From Rheinheimera sp. UJ63 (GTDB lineage: Bacteria > Pseudomonadota > Gammaproteobacteria > Enterobacterales > Alteromonadaceae), in assembly GCF_021568285.1 (NCBI RefSeq), contig NZ_JAKGTQ010000008.1, forward strand, positions 1 to 64,000: a stretch of 64,000 nt of DNA, read 5' to 3'. Positions within the stretch are counted from its first letter, which is position 1. Every line of letters starts with the position of its first letter. This document shows positions 5,656 through 53,167 of this stretch, piece after piece. A program made the position numbers and the translations under genes. A model generated the notes under the pieces. It was given only the letters and a program-made list of their open reading frames with translations. It was not told the origin of the DNA and searched no databases.

Positions 5656-8559
5656 TTAACGAGTGTTATCAGCTAAGGCTAAGCGATTACGCCCTAATCT
5701 TTTCGCGTTATACAAGGCTTTATCGGCACTGACTAATAGTTGGGGTAATTCCAACTTATTATTCGTGGTTAAACCAATACTAATCGTGATATGCAAATCT
5801 GCAGCTAGATCAGTGAAGTTAAGTTTTTCTACTTTATGACGAAGGCGTTCACACACCTCTGAAGCATCCTGTAATGAAGTATCAGGTAACAACACCACAA
5901 ACTCCTCGCCGCCCCAACGTGCAAGCATATCAACCGTCCGGCATTGCTGTTTTAACACTTCAGCCAAACGTTTCAGTACTTCATCACCTACCGCATGCGA
6001 CAGTTGATCATTAACCCGCTTAAAATGATCAACATCTATTAATGCCAGACATAAAGTGGTGTGATTCCGCTGCGCGCGTTGATACTCATGCTGCAATTCT
6101 TCATCAAAGGCTCGGCGATTAGCCAAACCGGTTAAGGCATCTTGTCTCGCCAGTAATTGCAGTTCTGTTGTTTGCTCTGAGACTAATTTACGCAAACGTT
6201 GTTCAGTGTGTCTCAAACTCGACATACGCCAACGCACCAACATAATACTGAGTGTGGTGAGTAACAAGATAATGGCTAATTTAAACCACCAACGCTGCCA
6301 AAGATGTGGCAATAACGTAAAAGTATAGACAGCTTCTTGCTTGCTCCACTCACCATCGGGATAACTGGCACTCACTAAAAAGCGATATTCGCCTGGTGGT
6401 AAGTTAGTGTACTCGGCGGTAATGGCGGTGCCACGCGCCACCCAATCACGATCAAAACCGTCTAACTTAGTGCGATACTGAATTCGCCCTGACATCACAA
6501 AACCCAAGCCTGCGTAACTAATTTCCAATCGATTGCTGCCTGCGGCGAGCTTAGCTGGAGAATCTAAGGGTAAAGCTTGGCCATCGACATGCACTTTTTC
6601 AATGACTACTGGCGGAGCAATTTCAGCAAATTGCTGCAAGCGCTCAGGCTGAACCCGCGTAACGCCCATAGATGTGGCAAACCACACCGAACCATCATGG
6701 TGTAGTGCACCCGCTTTAGCAGAGCCGCCATTGGCTTGCGAGCTGATCATGCCATCGCTTTCACCATACAGTTCGACATTTAATGCACTACGCTTACCGG
6801 CTAAAAGCGCTAGGGCATGGCTGCGATTTAACCTTAAAATACCCCTATTACTGCTGATCCAAAAGGATCCTTGCTGGTCTTGAACTAACTCAAATATTTT
6901 ATCAAACGGCATGCCTTGCGCTCGGCCAATAATCTGTATGTCATTACTGGCTAGATGATAGGCCATCAGGCCTCGATCCGTGGTGATCCATAAAATGTTA
7001 ACTGGGGCATCATAGGTCATCCCAAAGGCATAGTGTGCATCATCATAGGCGGCTAAATTTAGTGTTCTCAGCTGCTCGTTTTCATAAACGGCCACACCAT
7101 TGCCGGTACCAATAAAAATCCGCTGATCAGGTGCTTGAAACAGCGAGACAACAAACGAACTGGGTAAACCATCAGCAATGCCTAAACTTAAAATACCATC
7201 ATCCTTTACAAGACTGACACCATTAGACGTACCTACCCACATTTGACCGTTGCCCAGAGGTAAAATGGCGCGCACTTCATTGGCCGGTAAACCGTTCCCG
7301 GTATCATAATGGCGTCGGATTTGATCGTGTTGCAGTTCAATTAAACCATCGGCATAGGTACCCACTAACACCGTCTGATCGGGACCTTCCGCTAAACTTA
7401 ACACCGACTGCCCAACACTGACTGCCGATAAATCAATAATACTGAACACACCATTACAAATACGGGTTAAACCGCGGCTGCTACCAACATACATGCAGCC
7501 ATTGGAATGCGACAACACAGCACGGGTATAATTTCCAGCTAATCCGGCTTCGGTGGTCATGGTATTAAAAGGCGCATCTCTTAAACGAAAAATGCCGCCA
7601 TTAGTGCCAACCCACAAATTACCTTCTTTGTCTTTTAACAAGGCTAAAATACGATTATTGGGTAAGCCCTGTCGCATATCTAAGGTTTCAGTAATACCGT
7701 TATGTTGGCGTAATAAGCCTCTATCGATAGTGCCAATCCAAAGAATGTCGGCGTTATCCTGCAATATGGCCGACACTGGAACATTATCTAATAAAGTTAA
7801 TGGTTTAGCTTGACTTGGCTGTGCCAGATAAAGGCCACGTTCTGTACCCACCAGTAACTCTGCTTGATGATTTAATTCCAAAGCAAATATCGGTACGCCA
7901 TTAAATTCGTCAGCAGCAACCGGTTGAATTTGCAATTGTGCATCTAAGTAAACCAATCCATTCGCGGTGCCAACCCACAGCAAGCCCTTGGCGTCTTGTT
8001 GCAAACTGTGAATTTGGAGTGAGGGTAATCCATCGTCAAGCGTAAAATGTGTGCGTTTACCGGCAGCATCTTGCATGTAGAGGCCCTGCCCCTCAGTAGC
8101 AACCCATAATCGATCTTGATTATCCATAAACAAACGATTAATCAATTCACCAAAAGGGGGGAAAGCTTGCCATTGCCCATCTTGTACTTTAACCAACCCG
8201 CCTCGTGCACCACCTATCCACAAAACATTATGTTGATCTAAATGAAAAGTACGCACACCGACATCAGGCAAACCGGTTTGGGGGTTTCGATCAAAAATGC
8301 GAAATTCGCGGCCGTTATAACGTGCAACGCCTTCCCAAGTCCCAAACCACATATAGCCATCAGGGGTTTGAGCTATGGCATTAATAGTGTTGTGCGGTAA
8401 ACCGGCTCGAGTGTTAAGCGTTTCTTTAAAATAATTATCTAAGGTAGGAATATGCTTTGCAGCAGAAGTCGCCGCCGTATTAAAAAATACAGCACACAAC
8501 AAAAAGCAGAAAAACTGATAAACATGTCGCCGATGCCGACACAGGCCCGATAAAAGCAT
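5656..8559 (-). CDS. periplasmic two-propeller sensor diguanylate cyclase (Reg_prop/Y_Y_Y/GGDEF)
   Basis: This is a predicted inner-membrane sensor that makes cyclic di-GMP. After a hydrophobic N-terminal signal segment come about 700 residues of repeated units of the type GLP-N-I-DG-W-GT, the regulator-propeller repeats. A Y_Y_Y-like beta domain follows, then one membrane helix (WWFKLAIILLLTTLSIMLV, about residue 755-775) and a C-terminal GGDEF domain. The active-site loop is GGEEF (about 883-887), so catalysis is expected. RTVD five residues before it is an intact inhibitory I-site. The frame starts with TTG at 8571, but ATG 8559 is preferred. It is monocistronic between argC and metB, with no partner regulator nearby. 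The ligand is unknown. Confidence 0.9.
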   Translation of the reverse strand: MLLSGLCRHRRHVYQFFCFLLCAVFFNTAATSAAKHIPTLDNYFKETLNTRAGLPHNTINAIAQTPDGYMWFGTWEGVARYNGREFRIFDRNPQTGLPDVGVRTFHLDQHNVLWIGGARGGLVKVQDGQWQAFPPFGELINRLFMDNQDRLWVATEGQGLYMQDAAGKRTHFTLDDGLPSLQIHSLQQDAKGLLWVGTANGLVYLDAQLQIQPVAADEFNGVPIFALELNHQAELLVGTERGLYLAQPSQAKPLTLLDNVPVSAILQDNADILWIGTIDRGLLRQHNGITETLDMRQGLPNNRILALLKDKEGNLWVGTNGGIFRLRDAPFNTMTTEAGLAGNYTRAVLSHSNGCMYVGSSRGLTRICNGVFSIIDLSAVSVGQSVLSLAEGPDQTVLVGTYADGLIELQHDQIRRHYDTGNGLPANEVRAILPLGNGQMWVGTSNGVSLVKDDGILSLGIADGLPSSFVVSLFQAPDQRIFIGTGNGVAVYENEQLRTLNLAAYDDAHYAFGMTYDAPVNILWITTDRGLMAYHLASNDIQIIGRAQGMPFDKIFELVQDQQGSFWISSNRGILRLNRSHALALLAGKRSALNVELYGESDGMISSQANGGSAKAGALHHDGSVWFATSMGVTRVQPERLQQFAEIAPPVVIEKVHVDGQALPLDSPAKLAAGSNRLEISYAGLGFVMSGRIQYRTKLDGFDRDWVARGTAITAEYTNLPPGEYRFLVSASYPDGEWSKQEAVYTFTLLPHLWQRWWFKLAIILLLTTLSIMLVRWRMSSLRHTEQRLRKLVSEQTTELQLLARQDALTGLANRRAFDEELQHEYQRAQRNHTTLCLALIDVDHFKRVNDQLSHAVGDEVLKRLAEVLKQQCRTVDMLARWGGEEFVVLLPDTSLQDASEVCERLRHKVEKLNFTDLAADLHITISIGLTTNNKLELPQLLVSADKALYNAKRLGRNRLALADNTR

Positions 8560-48250: not shown

Positions 48251-48988
48251 ATGACCATCCGTAACTTAGCGGTACACAATATGCGCATTGTCCTGATCTG
48301 CTTTTTACTGTTAGCTTGGCCCTGCTTTTCGGCTCAGAAAACACTGAAAGTGGCCGTCAATATTGGCCCGCCATGGGCCTTTCAGCCTGCAGGGCAAGAA
48401 GTCACCGGCATTGATGTTGAGATATTACGGCATGTATTCCAGCAAATGGGCTACGCCACAGAATTTCACTTATTAGGTTATAGCCGGCTGATTAAAGACT
48501 TTAACGAGGGCAAATTTGATGTGGCCAGCCCAGCTGCTTTTGAATCGAATAGCGGTTTTCAAACGCAGCCTTATTTACCTTTTCAAGATGTAGTCGTTTC
48601 TCTTCAATCAGAGCAGCAAAAAATCAAACATACCGATGATTTAAAAGGAAAAAGAATTGTTACTTACCAATTCGCTCATGCGGTGCTGGCTGATCAGTTA
48701 AGTCATGTTATTCAAGACACAAATTATTTAGAGGTCGCTGATCGGGAATTACAATTAAGATTACTGGTAAATAACCGCACAGATGTGGTGATTGGCGAGC
48801 GCCGTTTATTAACACACATTTTCAAGCAATATTACCCGCAAGAGCAATTCTCGATCCATCCTATCTTTGTAGCAAAATCCTATGGTGCGATTATTAAAGA
48901 CAAACAGTTACAGCTGCAATTTGATCAAGAGCTTACCAAACTGATGGCGTCTGACAAGTATCAACAACTGCTGAAACAGTGGCCTTAA
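48251..48988 (+). CDS. periplasmic substrate-binding protein (SBP_bac_3 type)
   Basis: A 245-residue family-3 solute-binding protein. The hydrophobic signal ends near residue 27. The mature start KTLKVAVNIGPPWAF and GIDVEILRHVFQQMGY are typical of amino-acid binding proteins. There is no ABC permease next door, and the domain is single, so it may be an orphan sensor-type binding protein like those linked to chemotaxis or c-di-GMP enzymes. A diguanylate cyclase gene lies 51 bases downstream but on the opposite strand. The start may instead be Met11. Confidence 0.82.
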   Translation: MTIRNLAVHNMRIVLICFLLLAWPCFSAQKTLKVAVNIGPPWAFQPAGQEVTGIDVEILRHVFQQMGYATEFHLLGYSRLIKDFNEGKFDVASPAAFESNSGFQTQPYLPFQDVVVSLQSEQQKIKHTDDLKGKRIVTYQFAHAVLADQLSHVIQDTNYLEVADRELQLRLLVNNRTDVVIGERRLLTHIFKQYYPQEQFSIHPIFVAKSYGAIIKDKQLQLQFDQELTKLMASDKYQQLLKQWP

Positions 48989-49038: not shown

Positions 49039-50001
49039 TTAACTAAAACAAACCTGATCTCGACCATTTGTTTTAGCTTGGTACATCATGTCGTCAGCGC
49101 GTTGTAATAAACTTTGCGGCGTATCCGTCATTTGGCAGTCAGTAACACCAATACTAACAGTACAATTAGGCAAAGCCTGTTTAGTCGATTGCTGATTAAG
49201 TGCCAACCGGATCCGTTCAGCCAGTTCAACCGCAGGGTCAATGGCGGTATCAGGCAAAATAATCAAAAACTCCTCGCCACCAATTCGGCCAATAAAATCT
49301 ATTTTTCTGATCTGCTGTTTAAAGCATTCAGCCGCGAATTTCAGTGTTTGATCACCCGTTTGATGGCCATGATCATCATTAATAGCTTTAAAATGATCAA
49401 GATCGAGCATCATGATACATAGTGATGACTTTTGCCGCAGGCAACGTAATAACTCAATATCAAGGATGCGCATGATTTCTCGACGATTCGCTAACCCTGT
49501 CAGCTCATCCGTGGTAGCCAGCTTTTCTAATTGCGCGGTACGCTTTGCTACTTCTGACTCTAAATGCTGATTGGCTTGTGCTAATTTTTTTTCAGCAAGG
49601 GTTAAAGCAACAATTTTCTCTTCGAGATTGCGCTTACTCGGCATCGCTATCGCATAAGGCAATAAATGCCACAGCATAATGGCCGTTGCAATAGAGATAA
49701 TGCCCGTTAATGATTTCACAATGCCGTGAATATAGTAGTAACCATGCCAAACATTAACGACGCCCAAAAAATGGGTTGCACCGCAAAAAAATATAAAACA
49801 AGCAAACATCAACACGATCCAACTAAACTTTAAGTCATCACGCATTTTAACTAACCGAAGCAATGCCAAAGGGATCAGCATATAAGCCACAAAGGTCATC
49901 AAGTCGCCGCCGACATGCAAAATCAGTAAATCTGTACGCCAGAGCAAACAATGACCGTGCGGCATAAAGCTACCGTTAAACAAGTCGTTGATAAATGTCA
50001 T
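49039..50001 (-). CDS. diguanylate cyclase with ethylene-receptor-like membrane domain
   Basis: A 320-residue protein. Residues about 15-120 form three membrane helices resembling the ethylene-binding domain of plant ETR1. Asp33, Tyr40, Pro44, Cys73 and His77 occupy the same relative spacing as ETR1 Asp25, Tyr32, Pro36, Cys65 and His69; the last two bind copper in ETR1 and lie here in CGATH. A coiled coil (about 125-160) leads into a GGDEF domain with active loop GGEEF (241-245) and an I-site RKID five residues before it. It should make c-di-GMP. GGAG lies 6 bases before ATG 50001, so that start is preferred over GTG 50013. Ethylene binding is inference. Confidence 0.88.
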   Translation of the reverse strand: MTFINDLFNGSFMPHGHCLLWRTDLLILHVGGDLMTFVAYMLIPLALLRLVKMRDDLKFSWIVLMFACFIFFCGATHFLGVVNVWHGYYYIHGIVKSLTGIISIATAIMLWHLLPYAIAMPSKRNLEEKIVALTLAEKKLAQANQHLESEVAKRTAQLEKLATTDELTGLANRREIMRILDIELLRCLRQKSSLCIMMLDLDHFKAINDDHGHQTGDQTLKFAAECFKQQIRKIDFIGRIGGEEFLIILPDTAIDPAVELAERIRLALNQQSTKQALPNCTVSIGVTDCQMTDTPQSLLQRADDMMYQAKTNGRDQVCFS

Positions 50002-50143
50002 GTTGAACTCCACTGCCTCACTACGTTATTCAGTTTAGCTAACAATCAACGTTTATGGGGGAGTAATCCTTACACTAACGAGTACGTTCAATATGAACAA
50101 CTGCCATGCAGCAACTATTAATGCTAGCTATGGCTTAAATTTC

Positions 50144-50949
50144 TTAACCCAAAAAGAATAATGCCGGCAACAAAAAGCTCAGCCACACTAGGCTTATCGT
50201 GGTTATAAAAATGAATTTTTGATGCTGATAGTACTGTATAGACACACTTTGAAAAAACAGGGTATAAACCTTAAATTCGTGCCAGATGAAATGTGTGCAA
50301 GCTATGATTAATGGCACAAGCATTATATAACCAATCACCAGAGCACCCATATCAAACAGCAAATTTTGACTGCCTAGTAATAACATGGTCATAGTTAAGC
50401 TTACACAGCAACAAACAGTCAGCCGCAACGCAATTCGAGTTAAAGACAAATAAACAAATTTTAAATCGATGGGTAACTGCAATATTACAATGCTAAAGTT
50501 AGTTTTGCCCTGTAAATGCCTAACGCTTAGTAAAACTATAAATGTGCTCAAAAGCACCAGTAACAACACGCACCGCAGCACAGTATTAGTTGAGAAGGGA
50601 GCATGCACAAACCCGGACACCAACAAAATAAACACAGGAGTGCAGAATTTAAGCTGGCTTTTACAGTATAAATGTTGAAACTGCCAAACGCCGAAGGTAT
50701 CCATTGCCCAGCAAAAATAACGCTGGTGCACCACAGCAGCATGCAGTTTAAGAAGTCCAAGTACCAGCACAATGAACAAAACCAATGCCAATACAAAGCG
50801 GCTATCCAGAATGGGTAATGACAAGGCCCAATAACCAGGTAAAGGAATAAGTAAAAGTACGACTGGCGATATTAGTGCGCCGAGGCCAATTAATACACGA
50901 TAAAAAACGCTATTATTCGCTCTATGCTCACTAAAAAGACCACGCTCTA
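50144..50949 (-). CDS. ABC transporter permease-like membrane protein without a normal start
   Basis: Hydrophobic protein with about six or seven membrane helices. The first in-frame start (TTG) is at 50824, giving 226 residues, but the frame stays open 48 codons further upstream. It reads through FNEIERGLFSEHRANN and a good membrane helix, back to a TGA inside the ATPase gene. In that stretch no ATG, GTG or TTG occurs; an ATA overlaps the ATPase stop. The frame is -1 relative to the ATPase. It may start at ATA, be made by frameshifting, or be disrupted. I give the span back to the ATPase stop as the best estimate. Confidence 0.65.
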
Positions 50950-51540
50950 TCTCGTTAAACTGCTTAACCCAGACTCAATACGTAACTCATCTTGTATATG
51001 AACTGTAAAACGCTGCTCATGATCAACGATCAGCATAGGCCTGTTATCTTCAAACAAGGCTTGTATCACAAGATCAGCCGTTTCATCATCTAAGCCATTT
51101 AGAGGCTCATCTAACAACAACATGTCATGAGTAGAGCTTAAGGCAACTGCAACACGGAGTTTTTGCCTTGTACCAGTGGATAACTTACCAGCTTGAGTTT
51201 TTTGGTAGGGCTGTAAAGACAACACTTTCATATAGTGTTCAAACACGTCAGCCTGAATGACTGATTCTTGTAAATATAAATGACTGATTTGTTCTAGGGT
51301 TAACATCTCTGGATAATAAATGCAGTCTGACAAAAGACCGATTCGATTTACACCATGAGGATAAAGAATGACGCCTTGATCTGGCTTTTCAAACCTAGCA
51401 AGTAACTTAAGAAAAGTGGTTTTACCTGAACCATTTTTACCAGCTAGCCGGATCTTGTGTAATGGTATTTCAACAGAAAGATTAGTTAGCACTGTTTGGT
51501 TTCCAAACCGTTTTGAAATATTTTCTACCTGAATCGCCAC
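50947..51540 (-). CDS. ABC transporter ATP-binding protein
   Basis: A compact 197-residue ATPase. Walker A GKNGSGKT (34-41), signature LSTGT (120-124, altered from the usual LSGGQ), Walker B LLLDEP (141-146), D-loop LNGLDD and switch His174 are all present. It is therefore complete despite its length. Together with the permease frame downstream and the small membrane protein upstream it forms a local exporter-like cluster. The substrate is unknown. The cluster's AT content looks higher than its neighbours, hinting at transfer. Confidence 0.87.
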   Translation of the reverse strand: MAIQVENISKRFGNQTVLTNLSVEIPLHKIRLAGKNGSGKTTFLKLLARFEKPDQGVILYPHGVNRIGLLSDCIYYPEMLTLEQISHLYLQESVIQADVFEHYMKVLSLQPYQKTQAGKLSTGTRQKLRVAVALSSTHDMLLLDEPLNGLDDETADLVIQALFEDNRPMLIVDHEQRFTVHIQDELRIESGLSSLTR

Positions 51541-51705
51541 TAAAACAGCCTCTTACCTAGCTATGACTAAAATTGTTTAATATCCATTGTTTCAGAGTTG
51601 AAGCTCAAATATGAATCATCATCATTAATAACCAACCGCAAAAATAATAAATAACCAAAATAATGATTACCTAAGTGTTAACAAAGGCAGTTCAGGCCTC
51701 AACTA

Positions 51706-52083
51706 TTAATGCTCTGCTTGCCTCTTATGGCCTAATACCAACACAATCGCCGAAGAGTTAAATGAAAGCACAAAGACCTTACTCATTAAAATACCTAAGT
51801 GATTAAGGCCAGTGATATTAATCAGTGATGCCAGACCGACTAATAACAACACAATAATAAACAATGCAATAAACCGATAACCGCGGATAGTCTGCAGCTT
51901 AATTAGTGCTTTCGTAAATATAAAATACGCCAGCAGCACCCCTAGAATGGAAGACGCTATACAGCGTAAAAAAGACAGTATGCCAAAGGGCTGATCGTCG
52001 ATAAAAAACTCAACAACATAAAACGTCAGCGGCACCACCACCAGCAAGATCCAAAGCCACTGTTTAGTTGAAAGGTTATTCAT
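51706..52083 (-). CDS. small four-helix membrane protein
   Basis: I do not recognise a family. The 125-residue product has four hydrophobic segments (about 8-24, 37-57, 72-92 and 99-117) and a short charged C terminus. It lies upstream of the ABC ATPase gene on the same strand, with a 165-base AT-rich gap, so it may belong to the same transporter cluster or be an immunity-type partner; that is speculation. Confidence 0.6.
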   Translation of the reverse strand: MNNLSTKQWLWILLVVVPLTFYVVEFFIDDQPFGILSFLRCIASSILGVLLAYFIFTKALIKLQTIRGYRFIALFIIVLLLVGLASLINITGLNHLGILMSKVFVLSFNSSAIVLVLGHKRQAEH

Positions 52084-52168: not shown

Positions 52169-53167
52169 CTACTGCGGTTTTAGTGCAATACGGAGTAAAT
52201 AATGGGTGGCAGTAATATATAACCAGCGGTTATCGGCACTTAATGCCACATTAGCAGAGGCGACACCGGTTTGAATAGTACCTAAATGTGCGCCATCAGG
52301 TGAAATCACCCAAACACCACCCGGCCCCGTGGCCAATAACACACCTGATGGTAATACTTTCAAACCATCGGGTAAGCCGCGCTGTTGCTGCGCCTGTGCG
52401 GTGGCATCCAGGAATAGCTCACCTTCAGCCACACTGCCATCGGCTTGTAATAGATAACGCCACCACTGTGCGGCAGCGCGATCAGAGTTGGCTACGTACA
52501 ACCATTTACCATCTGCGGAAAACGCTAAGCCATTCGGCCGAGTTAATTGCGTAACCAATAACGTCACTGTGCCATCGGGTGCCAACCGATAAACACCATT
52601 TACAGGTTGCTGTTTGTCTGGCGAAGCGTCACCACCGGCTAAACCGTATGGCGGGTCAGTAAAATAGTAGGCTCCGCTACTGTGTTGTACGACATCATTC
52701 GGGCTGCTAAATAACTTATCGTTGTAACGCATCGCCAGTGTTTGATATTGCGGCACGCCCTCTTGCATCCCAGTAAATAGCGCTAAACGGCGATCACCAT
52801 GCTGCGCGATAACAAGCTGCTTATCCGCATTAAAAATCAGACCATTAGCCCCCTGCTGCCGGTTATTCTCGGGATGTAAACCGGTGTAACCCGATGGCTG
52901 CAAAAACAATGTTAAGCCGGCGTGTTCATTCCAACGGTACACTTTATTTTCAGGCACATCAGAAAACACAATATCGCCACTACCCGGCTCGGCAATCGGC
53001 CCTTCTGACCAGCTAAAGCCTTCGGCCAATATTTCTAAAGTGGCATCTTCAGCAATAATCTCAGCCAATTGTGGTTGTAGCATCAACACAGGCCTTTGGG
53101 GCAGTGGTGTCGTTTGTGCCAAAACCGCCGGCGTTAACAAGGCTAAAAGTAGCATTCGAAGCAGCAT
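52169..53167 (-). CDS. SMP-30/gluconolactonase family protein, secreted
   Basis: A 332-residue six-bladed propeller hydrolase. The first 17 residues are a signal peptide, so it is periplasmic. Family blocks are EGFSWSEGPI (metal-binding Glu), SSPNDVV (Asn), LTRPNGLAFSADGKWLYVANS and LPDGLKV (Asp). It probably hydrolyses sugar lactones with a divalent metal; the exact lactone is unknown. It is divergent from ibpA and monocistronic. Confidence 0.9.
   Translation of the reverse strand: MLLRMLLLALLTPAVLAQTTPLPQRPVLMLQPQLAEIIAEDATLEILAEGFSWSEGPIAEPGSGDIVFSDVPENKVYRWNEHAGLTLFLQPSGYTGLHPENNRQQGANGLIFNADKQLVIAQHGDRRLALFTGMQEGVPQYQTLAMRYNDKLFSSPNDVVQHSSGAYYFTDPPYGLAGGDASPDKQQPVNGVYRLAPDGTVTLLVTQLTRPNGLAFSADGKWLYVANSDRAAAQWWRYLLQADGSVAEGELFLDATAQAQQQRGLPDGLKVLPSGVLLATGPGGVWVISPDGAHLGTIQTGVASANVALSADNRWLYITATHYLLRIALKPQ

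Follow-up and report, generated by a model that had tools for sequence, protein, structure and literature searches.

A Rheinheimera membrane protein that joins an ethylene-receptor-type sensor domain to a diguanylate cyclase

Can a single bacterial protein couple an ethylene-receptor-type copper site to the synthesis of c-di-GMP? This question is raised by a gene at positions 49039..50001 of the window, i.e. of the whole stretch of 64,000 nucleotides from Rheinheimera sp. UJ63 that was analysed. Translation confirmed these coordinates, which had been given in a preliminary description of the locus, and placed the gene on the minus strand, with an ATG at 50001 and the stop codon at 49041-49039; the plus strand is interrupted by many stops. 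In the list of open reading frames, the frame starts with a GTG at 50013, and the ATG at 50001 was preferred because the match to 8 of the 11 orthologous loci starts at residue 1. The encoded protein of 320 amino acids, here called EBD-DGC for its ethylene-binding domain (EBD) and its diguanylate cyclase, matches two Pfam families well above their cut-offs, ETR1_N (PF25487; residues 25-119) and GGDEF (residues 162-316), and no kinase (HisKA, HATPase), PAS, GAF or receiver family up to an E-value of 1. With NCBIfam, we obtained matches to diguanylate cyclases and other c-di-GMP proteins, among which the general GGDEF domain model was the only one to reach its cut-off. As judged from its sequence, EBD-DGC is a membrane protein in which the sensor part of an ethylene receptor is joined to a c-di-GMP enzyme.

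The membrane part of EBD-DGC, encoded at 49645..49929 (minus strand), was recognised by the PF25487 profile over residues 25-119 with 107.5 bits (cut-off 27) and an E-value of 4.3e-31, and its predicted membrane helices span residues 23-53, 61-86 and 89-119. The EBD postulated in the preliminary description, a claim tied to such a profile match, is upheld by this significant result. A chance resemblance to the domain was ruled out by the profile E-value (4e-31) and by the same family search in control genomes, where PF25487 was found in 0 of 14. In ETR1 of Arabidopsis, seven residues are needed for ethylene binding, the source of which is reportedly Wang 2006; we take Y32 to be the seventh, in line with the preliminary description. 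The other six, D25, I35, P36, I62, C65 and H69, are named as binding residues in the excerpts available from PMC6586836 and PMC11819568. All seven have a counterpart in EBD-DGC (D33, Y40, I43, P44, I70, C73 and H77) at a constant offset of 8, the two proteins being compared by residue numbers only. Five of these, D33, Y40, P44, C73 (within CGATH) and H77, had been listed before at the spacing of ETR1, and each was indeed found at the ETR1 number plus 8; I43 and I70 (ETR1 I35 and I62) as well as K96 (ETR1 K91) are present in addition. On the minus strand, Asp33 (ETR1 D25, AzoEtr1 D35) is encoded at 49903..49905, and the putative Cu(I) ligands Cys73 (ETR1 C65, AzoEtr1 C75) and His77 (ETR1 H69, AzoEtr1 H79) at 49783..49785 and 49771..49773, respectively. 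Lys96 (49714..49716, minus strand) corresponds to K98 of AzoEtr1, which is equated in the available part of PMC11819568 with ETR1 K91, a residue involved in receptor output. These results support the view that EBD-DGC carries a true ethylene-binding-type domain with intact putative copper ligands.

The conservation of these residues was assessed in 26 distinct direct fusions, i.e. proteins in which EBD, helix and GGDEF domain follow directly upon each other, consisting of EBD-DGC, 16 others of the genus and 9 from six other genera. All seven binding residues, among them Asp33, Cys73 and His77, and also K96 are invariant in 26/26, a set that represents 7 genera and includes 17 proteins from the genus of the window; of the 108 domain positions, 67 vary and 41 do not. 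The probability of finding seven of seven invariant by chance is p = 8e-4, a value that serves as a guide only because the 26 rows are related. In a wider set of 121 distinct EBDs, Cys and His were each kept in all 29 GGDEF-bearing proteins and in 88 of the 92 others, which include weak and partial matches. Among the 29, one has N in place of D33, one has S in place of P44 and two have a changed K96; the proline equivalent to P44 is kept in only 73 of the 92 others. In another family of the phylum, the copper-ligand His is replaced by Arg and the Cys is kept in two loci, L165 (CGVTR) and L166; judging from this exchange, they may be natural variants that do not bind ethylene.

The GGDEF domain, encoded at 49054..49518 (minus strand), was matched by Pfam with an E-value of 2.6e-42. 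The fusion to a GGEEF cyclase with an intact I-site, as described before, could be verified: the GGEEF motif occupies residues 241-245 and the I-site RKID (R232-xx-D235, residues 232-235) lies five residues upstream. D200, N208, D209 and D217, which we take to be the metal and GTP residues of the cyclase, and R232 and D235 of the I-site do not vary among the 26 direct fusions, for the selection of which the GGEEF motif itself was used in part. By these residues, the cyclase domain is complete, with motif, metal/substrate residues and I-site intact. The structure was modelled with AlphaFold2 using as input the EBD-DGC protein and segments from 29 of the 80 loci retained in the orthologue search. 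The model consists of helices 23-53, 61-86 and 89-119, followed by a single helix (residues 123-163) and the GGDEF fold, with a mean pLDDT of 84, a pTM of 0.56, blocks of 64-82 in the membrane part and values below 50 for residues 1-20. The three N-terminal helices agree, at moderate confidence in the membrane part, with the three membrane helices expected of an EBD, and the hydropathy peaks of the protein lie at about the same places. The linking helix, encoded at 49513..49635 (minus strand), is continuous in the model and would form a coiled coil. A fold search gave 388 matches, the best 50 of which are all GGDEF proteins, some of them preceded by a coiled coil or sensor helix, and include nothing for the membrane domain. 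Among the matches listed are WspR fused to GCN4, Caulobacter DgcB and an Idiomarina phytochrome-DGC, which resemble EBD-DGC in having the GGDEF domain behind a helix or coiled coil but differ in their sensors. A profile of 33 EBDs (from 135 matches, EBD-DGC included) detected no solved EBD structure, the sole row being xanthorhodopsin with an E-value of 0.28.

The strongest comparison with a proven receptor is offered by AzoEtr1 of Azospirillum brasilense Sp7, which aligns with residues 9-128 of EBD-DGC without gaps and with 53 of 120 positions identical (44%). We located AzoEtr1 in a plasmid record (L211:2465-4042) as a frame of 525 codons, in agreement with the length given in PMC11819568 as far as available, with D35, C75, H79 and K98 in place. 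According to the same excerpts, the first 130 residues of AzoEtr1 produced in Pichia showed saturable binding of 14C-ethylene, ethylene lowers both biofilm and c-di-GMP in A. brasilense, disruption of the receptor also lowers biofilm, and the pathway from ethylene to c-di-GMP is unknown according to the authors. Both proteins share an EBD with all seven binding residues and the lysine in helix 3, whereas AzoEtr1 is an EBD-PAS-histidine kinase acting with a separate response regulator (PMC11819568, in part) and EBD-DGC consists of EBD, one helix and cyclase. More generally, EBD-DGC gave no match to the histidine kinase output domain that characterises the receptors ETR1, SynEtr1 and AzoEtr1. 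Arabidopsis ETR1 shares the seven residues at offset 8 and, as far as PMC6586836 was available, the C65/H69 copper site, but is a plant kinase-type receptor that acts via CTR1/EIN2 (PMC7700396, in part) and not via c-di-GMP. The cyanobacterial receptors GeiEtr1, GeiEtr2 and SynEtr1 likewise have an N-terminal EBD, and a gene with a predicted diguanylate cyclase domain is clustered with GeiEtr2; however, the Geitlerinema receptors are longer (655 and 1025 residues) and the cyclase is a neighbouring gene and not part of the receptor (excerpts of PMC6682694).

Taken together, our preferred reading is that EBD-DGC is a one-component, membrane-bound ethylene sensor controlling c-di-GMP synthesis, to which we assign a probability of about 0.62; the sequences themselves establish the domains, the residues, their conservation and the orthology, and the binding of copper and ethylene, the coupling through a dimer and the sign of the response are what we infer. 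The N-terminal three-helix domain would dimerise in the inner membrane, and Cys73 and His77, close to Asp33 and Lys96, would coordinate Cu(I), to which ethylene would bind. Binding of ethylene would alter the packing of the membrane helices, and this change would be passed down the putative coiled coil of helix 123-163, a shift of which would change the meeting of the two GGEEF domains and, as a consequence, c-di-GMP synthesis; feedback by the product would act at the I-site. By analogy, a cyclase that is active without ethylene and turned down by ethylene appears likelier, because in the AzoEtr1 system ethylene and loss of the receptor lower biofilm and ethylene lowers c-di-GMP. The sign is unsure since ethylene raises biofilm in Synechocystis, which is the opposite of AzoEtr1 (PMC11819568, in part).

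The surroundings of the gene were compared in 19 loci (L019-L029 and L171-L178, where L021 and L177 denote one stretch, as do L027 and L178), using blastp for the genes of the window and inspection by eye for all other frames. No window gene lies beside the orthologues throughout these 19 loci, so neighbouring genes were abandoned as a clue to the signal and EBD-DGC looks like a stand-alone enzyme. An SMP-30-like gene at 52169-53167 of the window adjoins the orthologue in 6 of the 11 loci (L022-L026 and L028), there on the other side and in the other relative orientation. Neither a family-3 solute-binding protein encoded convergently to EBD-DGC (48251-48988, plus strand) nor a small block upstream of it (50144-52083, minus strand) has relatives next to the orthologue in any of the 19 loci; the latter consists of a lone ABC ATPase between proteins of 226 and 125 amino acids that are hydrophobic by eye and gave no Pfam match. 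Eight neighbouring frames were scanned and contained neither an ethylene-related family nor a copper-handling gene. The genome has 49 GGDEF matches including EBD-DGC, another of which lies in the window (5683-6147, minus strand) within a frame of 980 codons, so that the effect of one cyclase may be narrow or hidden. Six PilZ matches in 5 frames, one with an internal stop, likely represent users of c-di-GMP.

Alternatively, the domain may sense another small ligand, such as another alkene, CO, oxygen or the redox state, at the same copper site. Ethylene-binding-type domains are widespread and few microbial members were tested individually for ethylene binding, namely SynEtr1 and AzoEtr1 in the available parts of PMC11819568 and PMC6682694, besides the saturable ethylene binding seen in many cyanobacteria (PMC11819568, in part); nevertheless, we consider this explanation unlikely in view of a residue set identical to that of the proven ethylene binders. 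The domain could also bind Cu(I) at Cys73/His77 and report copper or its redox state instead of ethylene, in which case c-di-GMP would follow the metal supply. The ligands kept most strictly are primarily those of copper, which would fit such a sensor, as would the lack of an ethylene-related family in the eight scanned frames, but these frames are equally devoid of copper-handling genes, invariance in the 26 fusions extends beyond the metal ligands to all seven ethylene-binding residues, and AzoEtr1, an ethylene binder, has the same residue set (PMC11819568, in part), all of which makes a copper sensor rather improbable. Many cyclases have membrane anchors, and the 49 GGDEF matches suggest redundancy, yet a three-helix domain reduced to anchoring and dimer formation, with a constitutive or otherwise controlled cyclase, would have no need to keep D33, Y40, I43, P44, I70, C73, H77 and K96 in 26/26 fusions while 67/108 positions vary, and we give very little credence to it.

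The fusion is not a peculiarity of one strain. Of 441 candidates, 80 loci were retained in the orthologue search; 11 are orthologues with 65-72% identity from named Rheinheimera genomes and a few gammaproteobacterial MAGs, and 69 match one part of the protein only, nearly all the cyclase and two (L089 and L096) the membrane part. Within the genus, 17 of 31 genomes had PF25487 above cut-off, and each of these 17 has a GGEEF frame. The gene was not found intact in the remaining 14: 13 have no match, and one (L018, G002:C26:277555-277758) has an ETR1_N match that stays below cut-off and contains four in-frame stops, possibly a decayed copy or a chance match. In the family, which we take to be Alteromonadaceae, where GTDB places Rheinheimera (filed under Chromatiaceae in the NCBI taxonomy), PF25487 was above cut-off in 70 of 295 genomes, and a match was seen in 25 of 52 genera. 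The corresponding numbers above cut-off were 12 of 369 genomes for the class sample and 28 of 398 for the phylum sample, both of which also include some of these family members. Because the domain is this common in family, class and phylum samples, the statement that bacterial EBDs occur mainly in cyanobacteria cannot be maintained; the available part of a review (PMC7700396) also reports that EBDs occur in many proteobacteria, joined to output domains of diverse kinds. Direct EBD-helix-GGDEF proteins of 322-357 codons, identified by Pfam for eight and by motif for the rest, occur in 18 or more of the 295 family genomes, spread over 7 of the 52 genera (codes g1, g5, g6, g10, g24, g45 and g50), a lower bound as many longer frames end at the edge of the locus. 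A one-off fusion or an assembly artefact is ruled out by its presence in 17/31 genomes of the genus and outside this genus in several others. Carriage by phages or plasmids was rejected as well, since there was no phage match and the matches in 18 plasmid records were all below 60% identity and from other taxa including Azospirillum and cyanobacteria.

The direct fusions cluster in a single group of 26 rows, supported at 88 (not starred), in a tree of 120 distinct EBDs that was calculated by a quick method with SH-aLRT only and in which several branches are long; the sole row of this group without a fusion label, L029, is an orthologue ending at a contig end. Three further proteins with EBD and c-di-GMP domain in one chain are found elsewhere in the tree with a support of 91 (not starred): L130 (PAS domains, GGDEF and the beginning of an EAL domain), L133 (PAS domains and GGDEF) and L096 of Chitinimonas prasina (GAF and GGDEF). 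They differ from EBD-DGC by the PAS or GAF domains in between and are probably separate fusions, and from their placement we conclude that EBD-to-c-di-GMP fusions probably arose more than once. The preliminary description had called the system unusual, which holds for the uncommon one-piece c-di-GMP output, EBDs in proteobacteria being known already, but not in the sense of an isolated oddity since the fusion is a conserved orthologous group.

Among the matches listed in the open-access literature, as far as their text was available, no description of an EBD-cyclase fusion was found; what comes nearest is the cyclase gene that accompanies GeiEtr2 (PMC6682694, in part) and the general statement on EBD outputs in PMC7700396. 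The domain composition suggests a single protein through which a gas from plants or algae could alter biofilm behaviour, and EBD-DGC would provide a direct design for the link between ethylene and c-di-GMP seen in A. brasilense. With sensor and cyclase in one 320-residue chain without kinase, PAS or receiver, this link is testable with purified protein, and EBD-DGC would be a small model for signal transmission by the copper-ethylene domain, for which sequence search gave no solved structure. A more far-reaching and tentative proposal, which we hold at rather less than even odds, is that EBD-DGC is a one-protein ethylene-to-c-di-GMP switch and that the family wired ethylene perception to c-di-GMP at least twice, in the one-piece EBD-GGDEF proteins and in a split block of genes (L181-L185). 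If true, ethylene from algae, plants or sunlit organic matter would set the choice between attached and swimming life in aquatic heterotrophs. The block was found in six family genomes (L180-L185; e.g. L182:2-5019), with Pfam applied to L182 and L184 only, and in 6/6 loci it comprises a stand-alone EBD (182-184 codons), the tail of which looks helical, flanked by a GAF-histidine kinase on one side and by another histidine kinase, hydrophobic at its N-terminus, on the other. A receiver-GGDEF-EAL protein adjoins it in five of the six (L181-L185), and these five blocks may be a split receptor with c-di-GMP output, joint action being suggested by gene order; they would fit, by a separate route, ethylene-type sensing feeding c-di-GMP in this family. 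In L180, this place is taken by a 357-codon receiver-like frame without GGDEF or EAL motifs on the other strand.
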